From Methanocaldococcus villosus KIN24-T80 (GTDB lineage Archaea; AGJL01; Methanococci; Methanococcales; Methanocaldococcaceae): a DNA stretch of 64,000 nucleotides. A program made the translations under genes and the position numbers. The stretch's first letter is position 1. Every line of letters begins with the position of its first letter. The stretch covers positions 186,001 through 250,000 of the forward strand of contig NZ_AQUK01000001.1 of assembly GCF_000371805.1 (NCBI RefSeq). Direction: 5' to 3'. Below are positions 5,811 through 23,622 of this stretch, one piece after another. A model generated the notes under the pieces. The model had not been told where the DNA came from and did not search any database. It worked only from the letters and a program-made list of their open reading frames with translations.

Positions 5811-6689
5811 ATGAAGGATAAAATATATGGATGTGTATTTGGAGCTATAGTTGGAGATGCTTTAGGAGCAGCAACAGAGGGAATGTCAAGGGATGAGATT
5901 CAGAAAGTTTATGGATATGTTACTGATTATGTTGAGCCAAAAAATTATTTAAAAGGTATTCTAAAGAAAGGAGAATATACTGATGATACTGAACAGGCTA
6001 TTTTTATTATAAAATCTATCAATAAGAATGGTAGTGTAGATTTAAAGAGGTTTGCAAATTATTTAATAAACTTTGGAAATAAAAAATTTTATGGATTAAC
6101 CACATTAAAAGCAATTGAAAAATTGAAGAATAATGACTTTTCAGGAGTAGATAGTCCCACTTGTGGAGCTGCGATGAGGGTATATCCATTAGCTATATTA
6201 TACCATAATAACTTAAATAAATTAAGGGAAGAGATTATAAAGATCTCTAAGATAACTCACAACAATAAAGAAGCTATAAGTGGTGCTTTAGCTGTGGGTT
6301 ATTTTGTAGCAAATGCATTAAATAATAAGAGAGATTTGGATGGATGCTGTTCATTTTTAAATAATGAGTTTTCAAATTTGTTATTAAAAATTAAAGACTT
6401 CAGAAATGTTCAGAAAGCTTATAACTACTTTGGTACAGGTACTCTTGCAAGAGAAGTGGTACCATCAGCTATAGCAACATTCTTACTAACGGAGAGTTTT
6501 GAAGAAGGCATGTTAAAAGCAGTAAATGCAGGAGGAGATACAGATACATTAGCATCTATCTATGGAGCTATAGCAGGAGCTTATTATGGCTATAAAGCAA
6601 TTCCCAAGAAATGGATAAAGGGATTAAAGAAGAGGGAGTATATAGAAAGTTTAGCAGAAATTCTTCTCAAACATTATCATGGCATTTAA
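5811..6689 (+). CDS. ADP-ribosylglycohydrolase family protein
   Basis: About 292 residues with the ADP-ribosylglycohydrolase (DraG/ARH) signature: [20 protein letters not shown] at the N-terminus, the metal-binding [11 protein letters not shown], and the C-terminal [22 protein letters not shown], which supplies the second dinuclear magnesium site. Such enzymes remove ADP-ribose from protein or small-molecule targets; the substrate here is unknown. Possible starts are TTG 5799, ATG 5802 and ATG 5811. I prefer 5811 because KDKIYGC matches the usual N-terminus. The 3' end overlaps convergent gatA by 39 nt, the longest tail-to-tail overlap in the window. Confidence 0.88.
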
Positions 6690-13227: not shown

Positions 13228-14133
13228 ATGATTACTACAGTTGTGGGAAGTTATCCTGTTGTATTCAAGGAGAATGAAGATTTTTTTGATAAAATAAAAA
13301 AAATATTTGGAATTTATGACCCATATAAATATGCTATTGAAGTGGCAGTTAAAGATCAAATTAATGCAGGAATTGATATTATAAGTGATGGACAGGTTAG
13401 GGGAGATATGGTTGAAATCTTTACTAGTAAACTTTTTGGTTTTGAAGATAGGAGAGTTGTTAATAGGGTTGAGTTTGTGGAGCCAATAACTTTAAAAGAT
13501 ATTTTATATGCTAAAAAAATAGCTAAAAAACTAAATAGCAATGTTGAAGTTAAAGGGATAATAACAGGGCCTAATACAATAGCTTACTCTGTTAAAGATG
13601 AATACTATTCTAATAAAGAAGAGCTAATATTTGATATTGCTAAAGCTTTAAGGAATGAAGTATTAGCTATAAAGAATCATGTAAGTTATATACAAATAGA
13701 TGAACCCATTCTATCTGTAGGTATTGCAGATTTTGAAGTGGCTAAGAGGGCTATAGATATTATTGTTAGAGGTATTAATAAAAGCTTTGGCATGCACGTC
13801 TGTGGAAAGGTTTATAATATAATAGATGAGCTTAATGAGTTTAATGTATCAATTTTAGATCATGAGTTTGCATCAAATAGAAAAAACTTAGAAATTCTTG
13901 ATAGAATAAAGAAGAAAGTAGGTTTTGGCTGTGTTAATACAAAAGTTAATAAAGTTGAAAGTGTTGAAGAAATTAAAGGATTAATAAAAGAAGGATTAGA
14001 AATAATAAAAAATAATAATTTTATTAGTGAAAAAGATATACTAATTGATCCAGACTGTGGTTTAAGACTGTTAAATAGAGATGTGGCATATAATAAGTTG
14101 AAAAATATGGTATTAGCATCTAAGAATATTTAA
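13228..14133 (+). CDS. metE: archaeal MetE-type methylcobamide:homocysteine methyltransferase
   Basis: A 301-residue TIM-barrel protein matching the C-terminal catalytic half of cobalamin-independent methionine synthase. In archaea this half stands alone and uses a corrinoid methyl donor. Seen motifs: TTVVGSYPV at the start, ISDGQVRGDMVEIF, ITGPNTIAYS, QIDEPILSVG, GMHVCGKVYN (zinc His and Cys), and IDPDCGLRLLNRD (second zinc Cys and C-terminal signature). The start follows GGTGATATATT. It is convergent with the archaeosortase gene, overlapping by 21 nt, and has no metabolic link to that surface operon. Confidence 0.92.
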   Translation: MITTVVGSYPVVFKENEDFFDKIKKIFGIYDPYKYAIEVAVKDQINAGIDIISDGQVRGDMVEIFTSKLFGFEDRRVVNRVEFVEPITLKDILYAKKIAKKLNSNVEVKGIITGPNTIAYSVKDEYYSNKEELIFDIAKALRNEVLAIKNHVSYIQIDEPILSVGIADFEVAKRAIDIIVRGINKSFGMHVCGKVYNIIDELNEFNVSILDHEFASNRKNLEILDRIKKKVGFGCVNTKVNKVESVEEIKGLIKEGLEIIKNNNFISEKDILIDPDCGLRLLNRDVAYNKLKNMVLASKNI

Positions 14134-14562
14134 TTTTTTTAGTATAACTATCCAAAAGACATTCAAGAATAAAGCTACTGGAAAAAGGATAAAGCTAATA
14201 ACATCATGAGCTAATTGGAAGTTGTCTGTTTTATATGTTATTATCATAATTATCCTTAAAATATTTACAACATTTATAACTAACAATCCAAAGATGGAAT
14301 ATAATATTTTATAGGTTATTTTTACTTTAGGTGTGGCAAAAACAAAGCTTAAGAATATGGTCATCTCTAAAGAGCATGTACAAGCTCTATCAATAATAAA
14401 GATCTTATTATTAAAAAACAATAAATTATTATATGTGTAAATATGCATTAGATGGCCTATAATTGATGATAGAATATTAGATAAAAAATTTTCTAAGATT
14501 GATAAGATAGAATAAGAGATTATAAATACAAAGGCTATATTTTTAACATAATCTTTTCTCAT
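14113..14562 (-). CDS. archaeosortase/exosortase-like transpeptidase
   Basis: A 149-residue integral membrane protein with about four or five hydrophobic segments. It contains the exosortase-family triad in order: Cys (RACTCSLEM, Cys61 or Cys63), Arg103 in VINVVNILRIIMI, and His119 in QLAHDVISFILFP. Such enzymes are thought to cleave C-terminal sorting signals and attach target proteins to the envelope. The short length and the CTCS variant put it near the ArtE-type group I associate with Methanocaldococcus. It is the last gene of a seven-gene operon, joined by TAATG overlap to the small prepilin. The PKD protein two genes upstream ends in a plausible cognate sorting tail. Activity is inferred. 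Confidence 0.75.
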   Translation of the reverse strand: MRKDYVKNIAFVFIISYSILSILENFLSNILSSIIGHLMHIYTYNNLLFFNNKIFIIDRACTCSLEMTIFLSFVFATPKVKITYKILYSIFGLLVINVVNILRIIMIITYKTDNFQLAHDVISFILFPVALFLNVFWIVILKKLNILRC

Positions 14563-14765
14563 TATTCCATTAATTGTTTAACTCTTTCAGCTCTTTTCAT
14601 AGCTTCTGTTTGTGTAACGGCTTCTGATTTTAATGTAGTTTCTTTATAATGAGCCGAACCTTGAGCTATTGATTTTATATAATAAAATCCTACAATAGAA
14701 GCTACTGCCAATACTGTTGCTAATAATAAGGCAAATTCTAATGATATTTGAGCTCTATTTTTCAT
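14562..14765 (-). CDS. small class III signal-peptide prepilin
   Basis: A 67-residue protein with the archaeal type IV pilin-like class III signal: basic KNRA, then QISLEFALLLATVLAVASIVGF, with cleavage expected just before the Gln by an EppA-type prepilin peptidase. The remaining 40 residues are polar and helical (KETTLKSEAVTQTEAMKRAERVKQL). It overlaps the PKD gene by 11 nt and the archaeosortase by TAATG coupling. Its position between sortase and target suggests an assembly or anchoring subunit rather than a main pilin. Confidence 0.82.
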   Translation of the reverse strand: MKNRAQISLEFALLLATVLAVASIVGFYYIKSIAQGSAHYKETTLKSEAVTQTEAMKRAERVKQLME

Positions 14766-17700
14766 AATATCTCCTTATAAAATAGAATGTTAATATTAAA
14801 ATCATTATATGAATATAAATTGGAACTGGTATGGAGAATATATTTTCTTCATATAAATGGATATACCTTGTACAGTTGTCTGATAAATTGCTATTATCTA
14901 TTACTGTAAGAACTACAGTATAAACTCCAGAGTTATTATAAATATGATAAACTATTGGGTTGTATGTTTCTAAACTTGACCCATCTCCAAAGTTCCATAT
15001 ATATCTTATAATCCTACCGTCAGGATCATATGATGGGGATGCATTAAAGGTAACATTTAGTCCATTAATTATATAGTTGAAATTAGCTATTGGAGGGTAA
15101 CTTTCATTTCCTCCAACTATTATTAGTTTTGATGTATAACCATATTTATTGATGTTATTTTTAACATATAGTGTAACTATATAAACTCCTGGCTTATTGT
15201 ATTTATGATTCACTTCTTTTTTATTAACTTCTACACTCCCATCTCCAAAGTCCCATTTTCTATAAACTATTTTTGTATTAGTTGGATATGATCTAGATGT
15301 GTCTATAAATAATATATTTTCATTAGCTTTTGGATATTTAGGATTATATGTAAAATTAGCTAAAATTCCTGAAACCGTAATATATCTTTCATATGAATTA
15401 TTAGCGTTCAGTTCATCCCACACTGTTAATTTTATTCTATAAAATCCTGGTTTATTATAAATATGATAAACTATTGGGTTGTATGTTTCTAAACTTGACC
15501 CATCTCCAAAGTCCCATTTATATTTTATTATTTTCCCTTCAGGATCAAAAGAGTATGAAGCATCTAGTACGATCCTTTGTCCCACATCAGGATTTTCTGG
15601 ATAATATATGAAATAAGCTACAGGTTTTTTATTAATTACAGAAAAGTTTATTTCTGTTTTATTCTTATCTCCAAATCCGTCCCAAACTGTTAAGATTGCA
15701 GTATAATTACCAATTGGAAACTTATGATAAACAGGATCTAAGGAGTTTGAAGTATAATTAAAAACTAAATTTCCTGAGGAATTATAGACTAACAAATTAT
15801 AACCATAAATCATTGCCATTGGAGAAGTTTTTGGAATTGTATAATTATCTATTATCTCGCCATTATGATCATATACAGGAATCTTTCTATTAGCATCAGG
15901 ATCATAACTATTCTTTGGATTAAATTCTATCACATCTTTATATGAGGCTGGATTAGGAAGAATAAGAAGGGAAGCTATGGGTGGATTGTTATTGATAACA
16001 TATACTTTTTTACTATTTTCAAATCTTCTATGATTATAAGAAATATACATATAAACTTCATAAACCCCTTCTTTATAATAAGTGTACTGCCAAGCATATG
16101 GAGACTTTCCAGGAGTTATAATTGTGCTATTACCATCCCCATAGTAAATATAATGCCGTAAATTAGTATATCTTTTAGGCTCAACAATAGTAATGTTAAC
16201 AGGTTTTCCAGTGCTTGTTATCATAGGATTAACATAAATTTGTGGAACACTGTAATAACCTACACCTATTGGTGGGGGAATACCTAAACCAATATTTCCA
16301 TTTTCATCAACTATTAAAACATGAGGATAATAGAGACCCTCTTCAGTATAACTATGTGTTGGAGAACTTTCAAATGAAATATCTCCATCACCAAAACACC
16401 ACATTACAAATATTACTTTTCCTGGATAACTAAAAGAAAATTTTACTGGTTTATTAGTAGTAACTTCTGGTTTATCAACTTCAGCAGGTATATCATAATA
16501 AAATCCCTGTCTTATTGTTAAATTATAAACAGGATTTGATATTATATCTGAATAATAGTAAAGATTTACGGTGTGATGTTTTTTATCATATTCATATTTA
16601 TAAGTTTTAGAATTGGATAAATTTGGATAAAAGTTATATTTTATATTTCCAACATCTCCAACAATTATAAAGTTTAAAGTATCTGATTTCCACCAACTTC
16701 CAGCTCCTCCATAACTCATCCAGAAAAATGGCCACATAAATGGGAATTTATATACATGCTCTGTTGGAGTAAAATATTCTCTATAAGTATAATCAGTTTC
16801 TACCCCATCTCCAAAGTCCCATTTCCAATAAAGTCCCCATGCATCTTTCATATTAAATTTAGTTTTATCACCTACTTTGTATGTTAATTTATGAGGATTG
16901 ACATATTCATTTCCTCTATTATCATTATGATTTAAAGAACTATTATAAACATACGTATAAGCCTCTCCCCCATAATGTGAAGGTCCCATAACCCAATAAA
17001 CATAACCTCCAAAATGTTGTTTGACATATATAACTTTGTAACCTACCCAAACTTTCCCATATTTATCAACTATTAAAACCTGTATAAAATGAAATCCAGG
17101 GGTTGTGTAAATAATAGATGGTTTAAATTTAAAAGATGTTTTATTATCAAAATTCCACATAATAAATTCAATATTATTTTTATTAATATTAGGGATAAAG
17201 GTTATATTATCTTCAATAACAATATTATCTTCATTGACATCTGTTATAATCCCTACTTCTCCACCAACTTTTAGTCCCTTAAATATTAAATCATTTATAT
17301 CTAAATCTGTAGGGTATTTGATTATAACTACATTAGAATTATTAACTGATGTATTAGCTATAGTGTAATTTTTATAATATTCTACCACCCAGGTATTTAA
17401 ACTATTATTAGGGATAAACCAGTAATAGGTGTTATATACATCACCAACAATAAGCCAATTGTAGGTTTCTGTTGGAGGGTAATGAACATTTTTATAATAT
17501 CCTCCCCAAGCTACAGGATATATAAATGGGAAAGTGTAAGAGTGATTAACATTTCTCCCATATTTTATCTTATCATCACCAAAAAACCATATTACTGTTC
17601 CATTTTCTATTATAATCTCTGTAGTATTACCTATACTTAAAGCTACAAAATTTATTGTATCATTTATATTAAATTTATCTCCTCCAGTACTATTAGTTAT

Positions 17701-17787
17701 GTTCATCAAACCATTATGAACAAATATAACATCAGCAAAAATTGATGAAAGAAAAATAAATAAAAAAATTATCAAATATTTTTTCAT
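14755..17787 (-). CDS. giant secreted PKD-repeat surface protein with C-terminal sorting signal
   Basis: A 1010-residue protein. It starts with a Sec signal (KKYLIIFLFIFLSSIFADV) and carries at least six PKD-like beta-sandwich modules marked by FGDG-type turns, for example DFGDGVETDY, CFGDGDISFE, YYGDGNSTI, DFGDGSSLETY and NFGDGSSLETY. Tyr, Asn and Pro content is high and N-glycosylation sequons are frequent. It ends with FSIPVPIY, a hydrophobic helix and RRYYEK, a tripartite tail like those recognised by archaeosortases. An exact 61-bp direct repeat (14933-14993 and 15452-15512) lies in two of the modules. It is probably a cell-surface stalk or adhesin. I use ATG 17787 because GGTGAAGTTG precedes it. 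Confidence 0.88.
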   Translation of the reverse strand: MKKYLIIFLFIFLSSIFADVIFVHNGLMNITNSTGGDKFNINDTINFVALSIGNTTEIIIENGTVIWFFGDDKIKYGRNVNHSYTFPFIYPVAWGGYYKNVHYPPTETYNWLIVGDVYNTYYWFIPNNSLNTWVVEYYKNYTIANTSVNNSNVVIIKYPTDLDINDLIFKGLKVGGEVGIITDVNEDNIVIEDNITFIPNINKNNIEFIMWNFDNKTSFKFKPSIIYTTPGFHFIQVLIVDKYGKVWVGYKVIYVKQHFGGYVYWVMGPSHYGGEAYTYVYNSSLNHNDNRGNEYVNPHKLTYKVGDKTKFNMKDAWGLYWKWDFGDGVETDYTYREYFTPTEHVYKFPFMWPFFWMSYGGAGSWWKSDTLNFIIVGDVGNIKYNFYPNLSNSKTYKYEYDKKHHTVNLYYYSDIISNPVYNLTIRQGFYYDIPAEVDKPEVTTNKPVKFSFSYPGKVIFVMWCFGDGDISFESSPTHSYTEEGLYYPHVLIVDENGNIGLGIPPPIGVGYYSVPQIYVNPMITSTGKPVNITIVEPKRYTNLRHYIYYGDGNSTIITPGKSPYAWQYTYYKEGVYEVYMYISYNHRRFENSKKVYVINNNPPIASLLILPNPASYKDVIEFNPKNSYDPDANRKIPVYDHNGEIIDNYTIPKTSPMAMIYGYNLLVYNSSGNLVFNYTSNSLDPVYHKFPIGNYTAILTVWDGFGDKNKTEINFSVINKKPVAYFIYYPENPDVGQRIVLDASYSFDPEGKIIKYKWDFGDGSSLETYNPIVYHIYNKPGFYRIKLTVWDELNANNSYERYITVSGILANFTYNPKYPKANENILFIDTSRSYPTNTKIVYRKWDFGDGSVEVNKKEVNHKYNKPGVYIVTLYVKNNINKYGYTSKLIIVGGNESYPPIANFNYIINGLNVTFNASPSYDPDGRIIRYIWNFGDGSSLETYNPIVYHIYNNSGVYTVVLTVIDNSNLSDNCTRYIHLYEENIFSIPVPIYIHIMILILTFYFIRRYYEK
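14933..14993. repeat. 61-bp direct repeat, copy 1 (PKD module)
   Basis: Exact match to 15452-15512 at an offset of 519 bp, which is 173 codons in frame. It covers the FGDGSSLETYNPIVYHIYN turn of a PKD module; the flanks diverge. Confidence 0.9.
15452..15512. repeat. 61-bp direct repeat, copy 2 (PKD module)
   Basis: Second copy of the in-frame intragenic repeat described at 14933-14993. Nucleotide identity is complete even at third codon positions, so it is either a recent duplication or gene conversion between modules. Confidence 0.9.
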
Positions 17788-17792
17788 CAACT

Positions 17793-18230
17793 TCACCTGA
17801 ATAATATTGAAGTATTTTTAGCTATATAACCTTCTGAGTATTCTATCAAGATAATGTTTCCTTTTGATAAATTAAATCCATATATAGTATTATTTACAGA
17901 ATAATTTATATTACCCTTTATCATTACTCCATCTTTTGTTGGAGTTAGTATTATTGTTATTGGATGTGTAACATTTATTGTATAATTTGCTACATAAATT
18001 ACATAATTCTCTTCACCAATAGGTTTTAAAACTACTGCTAAACTATTATTATTTGAATAAGCTAATAAAGCATAATTTTCTATCTTATTTGCTACCTCAT
18101 AAACTTTATCAGCTAAAACCCCTGATATTAGACTATCAGAAAAATTTATAATATTATTATATAAAAATATGGAAATAACCATTATCATCATAAATGCTAA
18201 AATTAAATCTATAGATATCTGTCCTCTCAT
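17793..18230 (-). CDS. class III signal-peptide pilin-like protein
   Basis: A 145-residue protein starting MRGQISIDLILAFMMIMVISIFLY, the archaeal class III prepilin signal with cleavage expected after the Gly. The mature part is Asn/Tyr rich with beta propensity (YVIYVANYTINVTHPITIILTPTKDGVMIKG) and has sequons such as NVT. It sits between the large PKD gene and a DUF2341-like gene with 4-5 nt gaps. The start follows GTGAAGTT. Probably a minor pilin-like subunit of the same surface structure. Confidence 0.82.
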   Translation of the reverse strand: MRGQISIDLILAFMMIMVISIFLYNNIINFSDSLISGVLADKVYEVANKIENYALLAYSNNNSLAVVLKPIGEENYVIYVANYTINVTHPITIILTPTKDGVMIKGNINYSVNNTIYGFNLSKGNIILIEYSEGYIAKNTSILFR

Positions 18231-18234
18231 AACT

Positions 18235-19812
18235 TCACTCTATCTCTATTTTTGGTTTATATCCACAGCTTCCCCATTTATATGTAGCATTTGTAAACAT
18301 GCCAATAATTGAATATCTACCATCATTAACCTTTATATACTGTTCAGGATCTCCATAATATATAGTACCTTTATAAGTTTTTGGTTTTTCTTCATGATAA
18401 TCTAATATATTTCTCATTGGTTTTTGTGGAATAGCTATTATATTGCTAACATCTTTTAAAACTAACCAATCTACTAAAACAGTTGCATTTAATACCCCTT
18501 CAGTGCAGATAGATATTGGATAATTTTCATTTATATTTATATTTATTGATTTATTGTATAACAAATTATAATATTCATTATATATTCTAAAGCTAACTCT
18601 ATCTTCTCCCCAGGATACAGAATAGATATAAAAGTTGTTTAGATATTTACTAAAATTAGGAATTTTAGAAAGATTTTGGCCATATCTCACATATAACCCT
18701 TCTTTTCCCCAAGAGGTATTATAGTAAATAAATCCAATACCATTAGAATCATTTTTAAAAAATCCTATAAATTCTGAAATATTTTCACTATCTAACTTCA
18801 TAACACTAGAGAAATTTGCTCTGAAGATTAGCTCATAATTATATGAGAAGCTTCTTTTAGTAGAGAGTTTAGAATAAGGACCTTTTACATATAATAGCCC
18901 ATTATTTATCCAACAACCTCCAGTAATTTCCCATGAGTTATTATCTAAATAGTTAAAATTATCAAACAGTATGAATGTTTTATGAGGATTTTCCCTATTA
19001 ATTTTTGTTGAAGAGTTATATAATATGAATATTTTTCCATTAATTAAGTTATCTTCACTACAATTTACCCAAATAACTGATATATTGTTGTATCTCCACT
19101 TTTCTATCCAATATGGTAATAAAATATACTCATTAGCTATTTTAGAACTACCTATAATTCTTATTTCAGAGGGATCATTTGGATTTTTCATTAGTGTATA
19201 GTTAAAATTAGTGTTATTTAATATTATTTTAAATATGTGATGCCCATTACTAACATTAACATCTACTGGTGAGCAGTAACTCCAATTGTAATAAAACTTA
19301 TTATTATAAACATAAGGATCAGGTATCTCCTTTAATGTTATTTCTTTAATTATGCCAATTTCCTTATTTATAATAATACTCACATTATTTTCTAACTCCT
19401 TTCTATATTTTAATAAAACTTCTCCAGTTAAAAGTATTCTTGTTGGCTCACTTGTAGGATTTATCCTTATATGGGACACAATAATTGTAAAATTATCCCT
19501 GCAAACATTATATAAAGTTTTATTTAATATGTATGTAATATTATTCTCAATACATTCTTCAGCTGAGGATGAATTATTAAAGAATCTATGTTCTTTCATC
19601 AATGTATAGCTAACATTTATAAAAACATCATTAACAATTTTATCTAAATTATGGTTTATGGTATGCTCAATATTTTTTTCAGCTAATGAGATCATTTTAA
19701 CCTCTATCTCATTCTTAATCTCAGATGTTTTTAAATCTATTGTGTTGTAAAAAACAGATGTTATAGTAAAAACCAATAAAACTAATACTAAAGCAATTTG
19801 TGTATAATACAT
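18235..19812 (-). CDS. membrane-anchored surface protein of the pilin-like operon
   Basis: A 525-residue protein starting MYYTQIALVLVLLVFTITSVFYNTIDLK, a prepilin-like or uncleaved N-terminal helix. Residues 25-150 are helical and charged. The central part (about 280-450) looks like a beta-sandwich of the concanavalin/DUF2341-associated kind: TFILFDNFNYLDNNSWEITGGCWINNGLLYVKG and VDWLVLKDVSN. The C-terminus has PEQYIKVNDGRYSIIG. Many N-x-S/T sequons suggest exposure outside the cell. The ATG at 19812 follows GTGATTTTT and clears the upstream gene stop. I recognise the architecture but not a function. Confidence 0.75.
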   Translation of the reverse strand: MYYTQIALVLVLLVFTITSVFYNTIDLKTSEIKNEIEVKMISLAEKNIEHTINHNLDKIVNDVFINVSYTLMKEHRFFNNSSSAEECIENNITYILNKTLYNVCRDNFTIIVSHIRINPTSEPTRILLTGEVLLKYRKELENNVSIIINKEIGIIKEITLKEIPDPYVYNNKFYYNWSYCSPVDVNVSNGHHIFKIILNNTNFNYTLMKNPNDPSEIRIIGSSKIANEYILLPYWIEKWRYNNISVIWVNCSEDNLINGKIFILYNSSTKINRENPHKTFILFDNFNYLDNNSWEITGGCWINNGLLYVKGPYSKLSTKRSFSYNYELIFRANFSSVMKLDSENISEFIGFFKNDSNGIGFIYYNTSWGKEGLYVRYGQNLSKIPNFSKYLNNFYIYSVSWGEDRVSFRIYNEYYNLLYNKSINININENYPISICTEGVLNATVLVDWLVLKDVSNIIAIPQKPMRNILDYHEEKPKTYKGTIYYGDPEQYIKVNDGRYSIIGMFTNATYKWGSCGYKPKIEIE

Positions 19813-19817
19813 AAAAA

Positions 19818-20351
19818 TCACTTTATATATAGCTTTACAATAACTGAAGAGATATTTTTAGAGTAATAAACAGGCATTAAAATGGGATAATTTAATTGTT
19901 TTTCAGCATACTCTTTAGCTATCATGTAATCAGGAAATCTTTTATCTAAAATGTCAATATATGTATCATTTCCATATATAATATACCAACCTTCAGATCT
20001 ATTTAAAATTAGTGTAGCTATTATATAAGTGTTTGAAGAGTTAAAATTTTTTTCTATGATAGTTTCATTATTAATTTCCAGTCTATAACTATCCAAAGGT
20101 ATAGAATTATTTAAAAGCATAATAGCTTTTCTTTTTATCTCTGTATCATTAAAGCTATACAATATTACAAAATCCTGTAAAACTCCACTTTTTATTAGTG
20201 TTTCCATTGTAGATAAACCTTTATCTATTTTATACTCATTTTTTACAGCGTCTAAATAAACATTATTATGCTCTACTAAAGAAACACTCCACATACCCAG
20301 CCCTACAATCAAGATAATAGTAGCTATTATCAAATCATAATCAAAAATCAC
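19818..20351 (-). CDS. pilin-like surface protein, unknown function
   Basis: A 177-residue protein with one N-terminal hydrophobic helix (LIIATIILIVGLGMWSVSLVEH) and a polar, sequon-rich remainder (IPLDSYRLEINNETIIEKNFNSSNTYIIATLILNRSEGWYIIYGN). It lacks the Q-x-S-x-E prepilin motif but resembles the same topology. The likely GTG start at 20351 overlaps the stop of the upstream gene in a GTGA coupling; GGTGGTAG precedes it. Found within the PKD/archaeosortase operon. Confidence 0.7.
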   Translation of the reverse strand: MIFDYDLIIATIILIVGLGMWSVSLVEHNNVYLDAVKNEYKIDKGLSTMETLIKSGVLQDFVILYSFNDTEIKRKAIMLLNNSIPLDSYRLEINNETIIEKNFNSSNTYIIATLILNRSEGWYIIYGNDTYIDILDKRFPDYMIAKEYAEKQLNYPILMPVYYSKNISSVIVKLYIK

Positions 20352-22072
20352 CCTACCACCATTACAGAGATATTAGCTAAACTAAATGTTATAGTCTTAA
20401 AATCAATATTCTCTTCTGATGAAGCAAATGAAAATTCTAATGGATATTTTGAATAGATAATCTTTATTTCATTTAATCCAGGTTTTAATTCTTCAGCAAT
20501 ATCATCATACTCTTTCCAAAGACTGTTGGCATTTTTTCTAAAGATTTTACCATTTATGGATAATATTACATCATAATCTTTATTATACACTATAGGCTCT
20601 GGATTGTTGTAAGGTCTAACAAATACCCAATCTATATCTAACCAACCATCTTTATCAACATAAAATACTATTGGTAAAACTGTATTTGGGATATAGTTTG
20701 ATAAAAAATAGTTTTGACTATCATTAACAATTAATACACTTCTCTTACTATCCCTAATTATCTCATATGTAACCCATGAATCATACAATTCATATGGTAG
20801 ATACAGATATTGATAATGGTCTTCATCAATTATGCTATTTTCAAACCTTATATCTCCTCCCCATTCATAGTTAGTTACTATAGTCCTATTATAACCATCA
20901 TAAAACCCAAAATAGGCATTGTGTTTCCTATGGAAATATACATGAGCTTTCATAGCATATTCCAAAGGAAATTTTTCAAAAGAAATAATATGAGATGTGT
21001 TATTTAGAGCTAAATATGTGAAATTTATATTATCATATTTACTTTTTAAAATACTAACATTCCCACTTACATTAAATAAACTTCTATTTAAATTAGAAAA
21101 GTTATCATAAAGTATAAAAACTCTCTTTCCATCACTTTCAGAATTGGCATTTGAATTACCATATAGCATGAATATTTCTCTAACTTCATTAGGAAGTAGA
21201 TTCATTTTTACCCATGCTATTGTATGTTCTTTATTAATACTCTGTGGTTCTATCCAAAAATCTAATTTATTTCCATTACTATCTAAAAACCTTACATCTC
21301 TACAAAATTTATCCATCTTACCTTCATCAATATATTCCTTTGAATTAAATATTATTTTAACAGGATAATTTTCTAGATATTTATTATCTCTATTTTTTAT
21401 CAATATTGGAGTGGCATACTTCCAATCACTATATAGTGAAAATGGGTTACTATCATTTGTTAAGATTTTCATGGAAAATTTTAATGATTTATTTGAATAA
21501 ATATAAATTATATCTCCACATTTTCCAAATGCTTTATATTTTAATGGGTTATTTAATGTATTACTATCTAAAATTATTATTGGAATATAAGCTGAATCTT
21601 TATAAATAAATATAGCATAACCACCAATTCTGCTAATTTTTAGAGAGTTGTTTAGTGTAGTTGTATTAACTATATTTGAATATAATGATATATTTTTCCC
21701 ATTAATTGTTACAATTATTTTATAATCTTCTAGCATGGAATAATTTACACTTTCTATTTCAGGATAAATAATAACATTGTTTTCAGAATAGTTATGACAA
21801 AGATCAAAAGTTTTTAGATTTATATTTCCAAAATATTTGCTGATGTCAATTGTATAAAATTTCTCTTGCGGAAATGAATATTTCTTTATATAATATCCTT
21901 TAAGTAATAGTGATTTATGAAATAAATCTATATCCTTTTTACTCTCAAAGTTTGTTAAAAAGTTATGCCCATATATTGAATAAACTAAATAAAATATAGA
22001 TAAGAATATAAAAGCTACAACAACAGCCTCTAATGTAAAAATATATCCTCTTTTTGATCTAATTATTTTCAT
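20348..22072 (-). CDS. DUF2341-type surface protein with prepilin-like N-terminus
   Basis: A 574-residue protein, first gene of the operon. The N-terminus IIRSKRGYIFTLEAVVVAFIFLSIFYLVY is a prepilin-like signal with RG before the hydrophobic helix. Around residues 215-330 a DUF2341-type domain is visible: WKYATPILIKNRDN, VKIIFNSKEY, RFLDSNGNKLDFWIEP and TIAWVKMNLLPNEVREIFMLYGN. It is followed by a lectin-like beta region (YDNFSNLNRSLFNVSGN to DGWLDIDWVFVRPY). DUF2341 often occurs in surface binding proteins. The ATG at 22072 is preceded by GGATGTGAAAAAT. It is divergent from the prepilin at 22156, across a 83-nt AT-rich promoter region. Confidence 0.8.
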   Translation of the reverse strand: MKIIRSKRGYIFTLEAVVVAFIFLSIFYLVYSIYGHNFLTNFESKKDIDLFHKSLLLKGYYIKKYSFPQEKFYTIDISKYFGNINLKTFDLCHNYSENNVIIYPEIESVNYSMLEDYKIIVTINGKNISLYSNIVNTTTLNNSLKISRIGGYAIFIYKDSAYIPIIILDSNTLNNPLKYKAFGKCGDIIYIYSNKSLKFSMKILTNDSNPFSLYSDWKYATPILIKNRDNKYLENYPVKIIFNSKEYIDEGKMDKFCRDVRFLDSNGNKLDFWIEPQSINKEHTIAWVKMNLLPNEVREIFMLYGNSNANSESDGKRVFILYDNFSNLNRSLFNVSGNVSILKSKYDNINFTYLALNNTSHIISFEKFPLEYAMKAHVYFHRKHNAYFGFYDGYNRTIVTNYEWGGDIRFENSIIDEDHYQYLYLPYELYDSWVTYEIIRDSKRSVLIVNDSQNYFLSNYIPNTVLPIVFYVDKDGWLDIDWVFVRPYNNPEPIVYNKDYDVILSINGKIFRKNANSLWKEYDDIAEELKPGLNEIKIIYSKYPLEFSFASSEENIDFKTITFSLANISVMVVG

Positions 22073-22155
22073 ATTTTTCACATCCAATTTGTTAAACTAA
22101 ATTATATATAATTTAAACATTATAATATATATATTACAAAAAGTTGGTGATTAAT

Positions 22156-23622
22156 ATGAGAGGACAACTATCATTAGAGTTAATCCTATTAACCTCTATA
22201 ATTATTCTTTCAGGAGCAATATTAACTTATCAGTTCACTAAAATACCAAACTCTCAGTTAGCAAACTCTACTGAGTATGTTAAAGAAGTTAGTTATGCAC
22301 TATTTGTACCTAATAAAACTTTAAAATCTCCTATTGTACCTACAGGTTCTAATATATCTATAACTATTCCAACAAAAAATGTAAGTTCTGAAGAAAATCA
22401 AACAATTAATGAAAGCTCTAAAGAAGAAAACCAAACATTTGGTAAGGCTAGTAGATTAAAAATAATTGTTAATGCTGAAAGTGAATTATTACTAACTAAA
22501 GATGTTTTGGAAAATGGTTCATGGATAAATGGAAAATTGCCTGGAACTATTGATAATAAATCGATTTATAATGCTAATGGTACAATACATTCTGATGGAA
22601 CAAATATAAATTCAGGAGGTAGTTTAAAAATAGGTAACCTAAATGAAATAGAAAGTTTAGATTTAATCGTAAATAGCGATAATTTATTAGCAATAATTAA
22701 GGACATCACCATAATATCAGCAAATTTCAACAGTATAAATTATAAACTAAATATTATAAACTCTCATATATATAAATCTATCATTGACAATATAAATAGT
22801 AAAGGACTGGTTAATATTGAAAGATCATATGTTAATAATTTAAATGTTAATAACGCTATAAACGGAATCTTAAACATTACAAACTCTAATATTGATGAAT
22901 TAAATGTAAATATTATAAATAGTGGAGGATGTTTAATAATCAAAAACTCCCATATTAAAAAATTAAATATAAAGCATAATTATGGTAAAGTAATTATAAT
23001 AAATTCAATAATAGAGAATAGAAATATAAATAATGAGAACCAAGGTACCACAGAGGAGATCTCATCTAATATTAATATTGATTATTTTGAGTTAAGAATT
23101 GTAGGTAATGGTAAAGCTATATTAACTAAAGACATTATTAAAAATGCAAGCTATTCAGATAGCATACCAAGATTGATAAAAGGTAAAGATATTATAAAAT
23201 TAAACCTATTAGGTAATGTTTATACAGCATCATCATCAGTAGTTGGTAATGGAGAACTTTGGTTAGGAAACATAAAAGAGATTGAGAAGTTAGTGTATGA
23301 AGAGAATGGTAATGCATACTTTGAAATAAATGGGATAAAAATAAATTTATTAAATAGTAATAGTAAAGCTGGTGTTGGAAACAGTGAAGTTTTAATTAAG
23401 AATTGTAATATAAATAGATCATACTTTAATAGAATAAATGGTAATTCATCTCTGATCATAGAAAGTTCAAATATTAAATATTTAGAAATTGAAAATATGA
23501 TTAGTAAGTCAAGTTTGGTTATTAAAAACTCATATATTGAACATTTAGAGATAAGTAATAAAGGAAAACATACTAATATAATTATTTCAGATTCATATGT
23601 AAATGGTAAATATTATTCATAA
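22156..23622 (+). CDS. prepilin with beta-solenoid-like repeats
   Basis: A 488-residue protein beginning MRGQLSLELILLTSIIILSGAILTYQF, a textbook archaeal class III prepilin signal. After a linker (residues 50-100) the rest consists of irregular repeats of about 20 residues such as INSHIYKSIIDNINSKG, NSNIDELNVNIINSGG and NSHIKKLNIKHNYGK. This pattern predicts a right-handed beta-helix as in adhesins. The pattern recurs in a second block (residues 390-485). ATG 22156 follows GGTGAT at 22146-22151. Divergent from the PKD operon and likely part of the same surface programme; the 3' end overlaps gatE by 6 nt. Confidence 0.8.
   Translation: MRGQLSLELILLTSIIILSGAILTYQFTKIPNSQLANSTEYVKEVSYALFVPNKTLKSPIVPTGSNISITIPTKNVSSEENQTINESSKEENQTFGKASRLKIIVNAESELLLTKDVLENGSWINGKLPGTIDNKSIYNANGTIHSDGTNINSGGSLKIGNLNEIESLDLIVNSDNLLAIIKDITIISANFNSINYKLNIINSHIYKSIIDNINSKGLVNIERSYVNNLNVNNAINGILNITNSNIDELNVNIINSGGCLIIKNSHIKKLNIKHNYGKVIIINSIIENRNINNENQGTTEEISSNINIDYFELRIVGNGKAILTKDIIKNASYSDSIPRLIKGKDIIKLNLLGNVYTASSSVVGNGELWLGNIKEIEKLVYEENGNAYFEINGIKINLLNSNSKAGVGNSEVLIKNCNINRSYFNRINGNSSLIIESSNIKYLEIENMISKSSLVIKNSYIEHLEISNKGKHTNIIISDSYVNGKYYS

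Follow-up and report, generated by a model that had tools for sequence, protein, structure and literature searches.

The 64,000-nucleotide stretch of the Methanocaldococcus villosus KIN24-T80 genome analysed here (contig NZ_AQUK01000001.1, positions 186,001 to 250,000; hereafter the window) contains a run of seven open reading frames (ORFs) on the minus strand, from 22087 to 14113, in which an archaeosortase and its candidate substrate are encoded together with predicted components of a type IV-like pilus. Neighbouring ORFs overlap by 1, 4 or 11 nucleotides (nt) or leave a gap of 4 nt, and they are designated here, in the order of transcription, G-F-E-D-C-B-A. An earlier note on this DNA had read them as seven tightly packed genes of one surface operon, and the packing was borne out. 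Homologues of all seven were found together in most relatives; because of this co-occurrence the set is not a chance one. Chance or misannotation as the source of the cluster was rejected on the family matches and the conservation in relatives.

The archaeosortase, the tailed PKD protein and the adjoining pilin

Gene A (14113..14562) encodes archaeosortase D (ArtD), with 157.4 bits against TIGR04175 (cut-off 125), and its residues Cys61, Arg103 and His119 are invariant in an alignment of 13 sequences. Gene B (14562..14765) encodes a prepilin of 67 amino acids (aa) with the motif RAQISLE, and shows all the features of class III, namely Gln at +1, Glu at +5 and matches to TIGR04205 (80.4 bits, cut-off 65) and PF04021 (36.9 bits). 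The product of gene C (14755..17796) is a predicted secreted protein of 1013 aa with five PKD stretches and a C-terminal tripartite sorting tail (SIPVPIYIHIMILILTFYFIRRYYEK, 14758..14835 on the same strand) made up of a Pro motif, a hydrophobic stretch and a basic end. The tail was assigned to the PIP-CTERM type from an alignment of relatives, and both of its prolines are invariant in 13 sequences. ArtD is predicted to cleave and anchor C, which appears to be its sole substrate, with one target per genome.

To determine the distribution of these genes, 61 genomes comprising 36 Methanococcales and 25 other archaea were searched. ArtD was found over the cut-off in 15 of the 61, that is, in 13 of 14 Methanocaldococcus genomes and in two from another family of the order, and in none of the 25 other archaea. 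The tailed PKD protein was present once in each of these 15 genomes and absent from the other 21 Methanococcales (Fisher p = 1.8e-10 over the 36 Methanococcales genomes, a value that, like the other Fisher values given here, ignores the shared ancestry of the genomes). The TIGR04205 cut-off was exceeded in the same 15 genomes, and B adjoins ArtD in all of them. The proposal that the archaeosortase and the PKD protein are inherited together was thus upheld, the full PKD-plus-tail protein, ArtD and the TIGR04205 pilin having identical distributions (15/36); we also looked for an archaeosortase lacking the PKD protein, and for ArtD no such case was found among the 36 Methanococcales.

The association itself is not new. 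The pairing of an archaeosortase with class III pilins had been taken as undescribed, but ArtD, the PKD protein with its PIP-type tail and TIGR04205 are already linked in NCBIfam, where the TIGR04205 model is publicly named for the ArtD/PIP-CTERM association (TIGR04175, TIGR04173, TIGR04205). The window likewise holds all three, ArtD together with its class III partner and a PIP-tailed PKD protein, while the names of the models are silent on the surrounding pilus genes. A literature search that did not take in the founding archaeosortase paper (Haft et al. 2012) found 'archaeosortase' and 'PIP-CTERM' together in no paper. With the Haloferax ArtA/PGF-CTERM system, ArtD and C share a C-terminal tripartite tail and a processing enzyme with a catalytic Cys; ArtA, however, processes the S-layer glycoprotein and has several further targets, whereas ArtD seems to have one target per genome.

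The epd pilus genes and the slot between epdC and the DUF2341 gene

The other four genes are, by profile and gene order, half of the operon for the epd type IV-like pilus. Gene D (17793..18230) is the orthologue of EpdC, gene E (18235..19821) of EpdI (MMJJ_08190), gene F (19818..20351) of EpdH (MMJJ_08200) and gene G (20348..22087) of the DUF2341 gene MMJJ_08210. Going by gene order, we take D, E, F and G to correspond to mmp0237, MMP0241, MMP0240 and MMP0239 of Methanococcus maripaludis strain S2, and mmp0241, mmp0240, mmp0239 and mmp0237 are all reported to be essential for piliation in that strain. The assignments were anchored on G023 (locus L082), a genome collinear with that of M. maripaludis JJ: of the published transposon sites, the 33 that were checked, in nine genes of the epd operon (positions from PMC10133366), all lie in the expected ORFs. 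The identities of D, E, F and G follow from this, and for artE, too, the published site lies inside the archaeosortase E (ArtE) gene of G023. In G023 a frame break divides the DUF2341 gene itself into two ORFs (L082:6049-7919, minus strand).

The epd pili belong to clade 1 of the type IV pili, for which a PilY-like position of the DUF2341 proteins at the tip has been suggested (Makarova et al. 2016, PMC4858521, where the word 'archaeosortase' does not occur), and DNA uptake by M. maripaludis depends on the pilus of the epd operon (PMC10133366). Compared with the M. maripaludis locus (mmp0231-mmp0241), the genes are here split in two: the orthologues of EpdC, EpdH, EpdI and the DUF2341 protein lie in the window, and homologues of EppA, EpdA, EpdB, EpdF and EpdL and an EpdJ/K-type protein are encoded elsewhere in the genome. 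Homologues of eppA-epdA-epdF-MMJJ_08260-epdB (epdF encoding a DUF515 protein) occur at about 482-486 kilobases. The EppA homologue has 47% identity over 333 aa, that of the assembly ATPase EpdL 63%, and the one EpdJ/K-type (TadC-like) protein that was looked for 46%. Judged by these homologues, the parts of an epd (clade 1) pilus, including minor pilins, two DUF2341 proteins, EppA, EpdL and a TadC-like protein, are present in this genome, and the genes are predicted to form a filament.

The N-termini only partly fit what had been said of them. Two class III prepilins had been claimed, and B is one; D, a minor pilin of 145 aa with the motif RGQISID, is of class III type with Gln at +1, but it has Asp rather than Glu at +5 and no PF04021 match. 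EpdC of M. maripaludis likewise has Asp at this position, and is EppA-processed and essential for pili. Three further proteins had been called pilin-like or DUF2341 proteins, and the DUF2341 part holds for E (528 aa) and G (579 aa). F (177 aa, a small alpha/beta domain plus a single hydrophobic helix at the N-terminus) and E both carry a hydrophobic stretch at the N-terminus, but a prepilin cleavage site is recognisable in neither, and the prepilin-like N-terminus of G, RGYIFTLEA, lacks the Gln at +1 that EppA processing is reported to require. The C-terminal part of G is beta-rich. Its DUF2341 domain looks optional, as at four loci in relatives (L040, L048, L049 and L085) G has about 270-300 aa, with the N- and C-terminal parts kept and the DUF2341 middle seemingly gone. 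Searches with the predicted fold of F (AlphaFold, predicted local distance difference test (pLDDT) 80) were uninformative, as Foldseek returned nothing at E 0.001 or better and with VIA-align the best Z scores were 6.2, for the long helix on its own, and 4-5, for the small domain. Besides, the divergent gene H next to the operon (22144..23622, plus strand) encodes a further class III-type protein of 492 aa with repeated short motifs, possibly an accessory; one or two class III relatives of H adjoin the cluster in several related genomes.

The pilus half is far wider in distribution than the archaeosortase. Profile matches to F were found in 32 and to D in 33 of the 36 Methanococcales genomes, many of them without ArtD, and the seven genes cannot therefore be the self-contained structure that had been supposed; a stand-alone seven-gene structure was rejected. 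In most of the 15 ArtD genomes, homologues of D, E, F and G accompany A, B and C, most commonly in the order D-C-B-A-G-F-E, from which the order in the window differs by the exchange of two blocks. Comparison of gene orders suggests that ArtD, B and C are an accessory cassette inserted between epdC and the DUF2341 gene. Nothing occupies this slot in G015, G016 and further genomes; G015, which is close to the window in G, F and E, runs D-G-F-E. In four Methanococcus genomes the same slot holds a different tailed protein, S.

The genome G024 appears to have received the cassette by transfer. Its genes run epdB-D-C-B-A-G-F-E, and immediately upstream lie three more, one of class III, one of DUF515 size and one resembling eppA. 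Its ArtD nests inside Methanocaldococcus as sister to that of G012 (support 97/95; 77% identity), while its F groups with its own family (support 100/100), and its F, G and E have only about 23-36% identity to those of Methanocaldococcus. D of G024 is ambiguous (65% identity to G020, 62% to G016), and the long branch of G024 keeps the tree of C from resolving. These comparisons are most simply read as the entry of ArtD, with B and probably C, into the native epd operon of G024 at the slot between epdC and the DUF2341 gene.

Taken together, we read the seven genes as the distal half of an epd (clade 1) operon joined by a cassette of ArtD, its one substrate C and a dedicated pilin B, with ArtD-anchored C as a partner of the pilus, and we assign this reading a probability of roughly two in three. 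That ArtD merely cleaves and releases C, with the pilus genes as chance neighbours, would agree with there being no known acceptor for C, but we hold it to be highly improbable, as the gene neighbourhood persists from genus to genus and the slot has been used more than once.

S and archaeosortase E in Methanococcus

The protein found in the slot in Methanococcus, S (MMJJ_08230; by gene order mmp0238), is a predicted secreted protein that ends in a Pro motif, a hydrophobic stretch and Lys/Arg. A profile search turned up a single S in most genomes. An alignment of 17 sequences drawn from several genera has six invariant columns, one of them the Pro that precedes the last helix; in all 17 Pro is followed by Ile or Val ahead of the hydrophobic end. 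The presence of S was compared with that of ArtE (TIGR04124), and among genomes at least 90% complete 22 had both and five neither, so that all 27 agree and none is discordant; four genomes of 81-89% completeness are discordant. When ArtE was compared with the pilus gene F in the same way, p = 0.19 was obtained, which argues that the link of ArtE with S is not simply a link to the pilus.

Deletion of artE abolishes transformation in M. maripaludis and has been complemented, and the main text of the study names no substrate for the enzyme (PMC10133366). Pili are reported to assemble without MMP0238, for which a role as tip adhesin has been suggested as a possibility. No statement connecting ArtE and S was found in PMC10133366 or in the MMP0238 piliation study. 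From the tail and the shared distribution we propose S as the ArtE substrate, and further that each archaeosortase anchors one pilus-associated surface protein. Like ArtD, ArtE is an archaeosortase tied to the same pilus system; unlike ArtD, it is a stand-alone gene with no substrate adjacent and a different predicted substrate.

S is predicted to fold as a jelly-roll (pLDDT 83), the closest fold being the carbohydrate-binding-type domain of BcsB (Z 11.4, root-mean-square deviation 2.7 over 109 residues; best Foldseek E 3e-8). In Methanocaldococcus and some relatives (L139-L144, L160-L163) S adjoins glycosyltransferase-, flippase- or UDP-sugar dehydrogenase-like genes, and with such sugar-gene-like neighbours a glycan-binding role of S would fit. 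Between S and C the similarity is tail-to-tail only and weak (E 0.019), and a profile comparison of S with the C-terminal part of G was also weak (E 0.01 over 21 columns). In the 25 genomes from outside Methanococcales no S was found, in a search that had no positive control.

In the genome of the window S is intact (L156:7743-8240, minus strand; tail TKTPIPLGAVILTLIAIPLIILRKKVK) and overlaps a downstream gene for a putative lipoprotein, and artE (L157, about 5868-6298; G000:C1:603867-604297) is split over two frames at a T-rich stretch. The combination of a broken artE with an intact S may reflect real loss, switching or a sequencing error. In G009 (L140:1504-3261, plus strand) the S frame runs in frame into a downstream flippase-like gene, where the sorting tail would be buried, which is either a fusion or a sequence error.

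A proposed model of pilus-associated anchoring and its meaning

In the mechanism that we propose, EppA would remove the leaders of B and D, the proteins D, E, F and G would help to start or cap the pilus, and EpdL with the EpdJ/K-type proteins would assemble it. A Sec-type signal peptide would direct the export of C, whose C-terminal helix would keep it in the membrane until ArtD cuts it at the PIP motif and transfers it to a different anchor. This would most likely be a membrane lipid, as has been proposed for Haloferax ArtA; standing on the surface, C would serve the pilus as its adhesive or receptor partner. In Methanococcus, S from the same slot would be anchored by archaeosortase E. C with ArtD and S with ArtE would then be alternative sortase-processed partners of one pilus, dispensable for building it and needed for some function that it performs. 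The gene identities, conserved catalytic residues and tails, perfect co-occurrence and shared slot are drawn from sequence comparison, and export, cleavage of C and S at the Pro motif, and re-anchoring we infer from family memberships; inferred, too, are the acceptor and any contact of these proteins with the pilus. It has become plausible that one structure is served both by prepilin processing at the N-terminus and by sorting at the C-terminus, as D, E, F and G are genes of the epd pilus locus and pilus-dependent DNA uptake in M. maripaludis requires ArtE.

The lipid acceptor is taken as the default because of the proposal for ArtA, and a pilin acceptor is possible because B always adjoins ArtD. 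ArtD might be a transpeptidase that joins the new C-terminus of C to a class III pilin, probably B, giving a covalently fixed adhesin comparable to Gram-positive sortase pili. B stays beside ArtD even in G002, where C lies elsewhere, and archaeosortases have sortase-like Cys, Arg and His residues. We nevertheless regard a covalent link as improbable, since ArtA, the only archaeosortase studied in depth, is proposed to link its targets to membrane lipid, an acceptor residue in B is not evident from its sequence, and ArtE has no pilin gene beside it. If it were true, this would be a type IV-like pilus with a fixed adhesin, made by two proteases acting on opposite ends of proteins.

Several points weigh against C and S as anchored partners of the pilus. 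In G002 the genes are scattered, with only B and A adjacent and with C, D and the G-F pair on other contigs, and in G010 D is located elsewhere. The tail of C in the window is too divergent for the PIP-CTERM model, giving no TIGR04173 match at E 1 or better; the C proteins of two relatives score 49.8 and 24.0 bits (cut-off 30). S lies outside the epd operon in most genomes, and the five genomes without ArtE and S, which may represent two or three independent losses, have kept the pilus genes. If the group of G021, G025 and G026 is Methanococcus voltae, which is reported to be competent, ArtE is not universally needed for competence. Insertions in MMJJ_08230 scored in the transformation screen but may be polar on G, F and E (PMC10133366), so that a requirement of S itself for DNA uptake would not follow from them.

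ArtD and C might instead be an independent surface-adhesin system that shares only transcription with the pilus genes, lipid-anchored C being spread over the cell surface with no contact to the pilus. In favour of this, about half of the genomes have the pilus genes but no ArtD, both C and the A-B pair lie apart from the pilus genes in G002, and S is usually found away from those genes as well. We consider this unlikely, as the cassette sits at one exact slot, which it seemingly reached by transfer in G024, a dedicated class III pilin stands beside ArtD in 15/15 genomes, a different tailed protein occupies the same slot in Methanococcus, and ArtE is needed for pilus-dependent DNA uptake.

DNA uptake in archaea is barely understood, and an archaeosortase essential for it had been found without a known substrate. 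The slot comparison and the co-occurrence provide a specific candidate substrate, S (MMP0238/MMJJ_08230), in a genetically tractable organism. The orphan ArtD/PIP-CTERM system gains a likely biological setting, and anchoring of a single protein by an archaeosortase is suggested as a recurrent accessory step of the epd pilus, with ArtE and S in Methanococcus and ArtD and the PKD protein in Methanocaldococcus.

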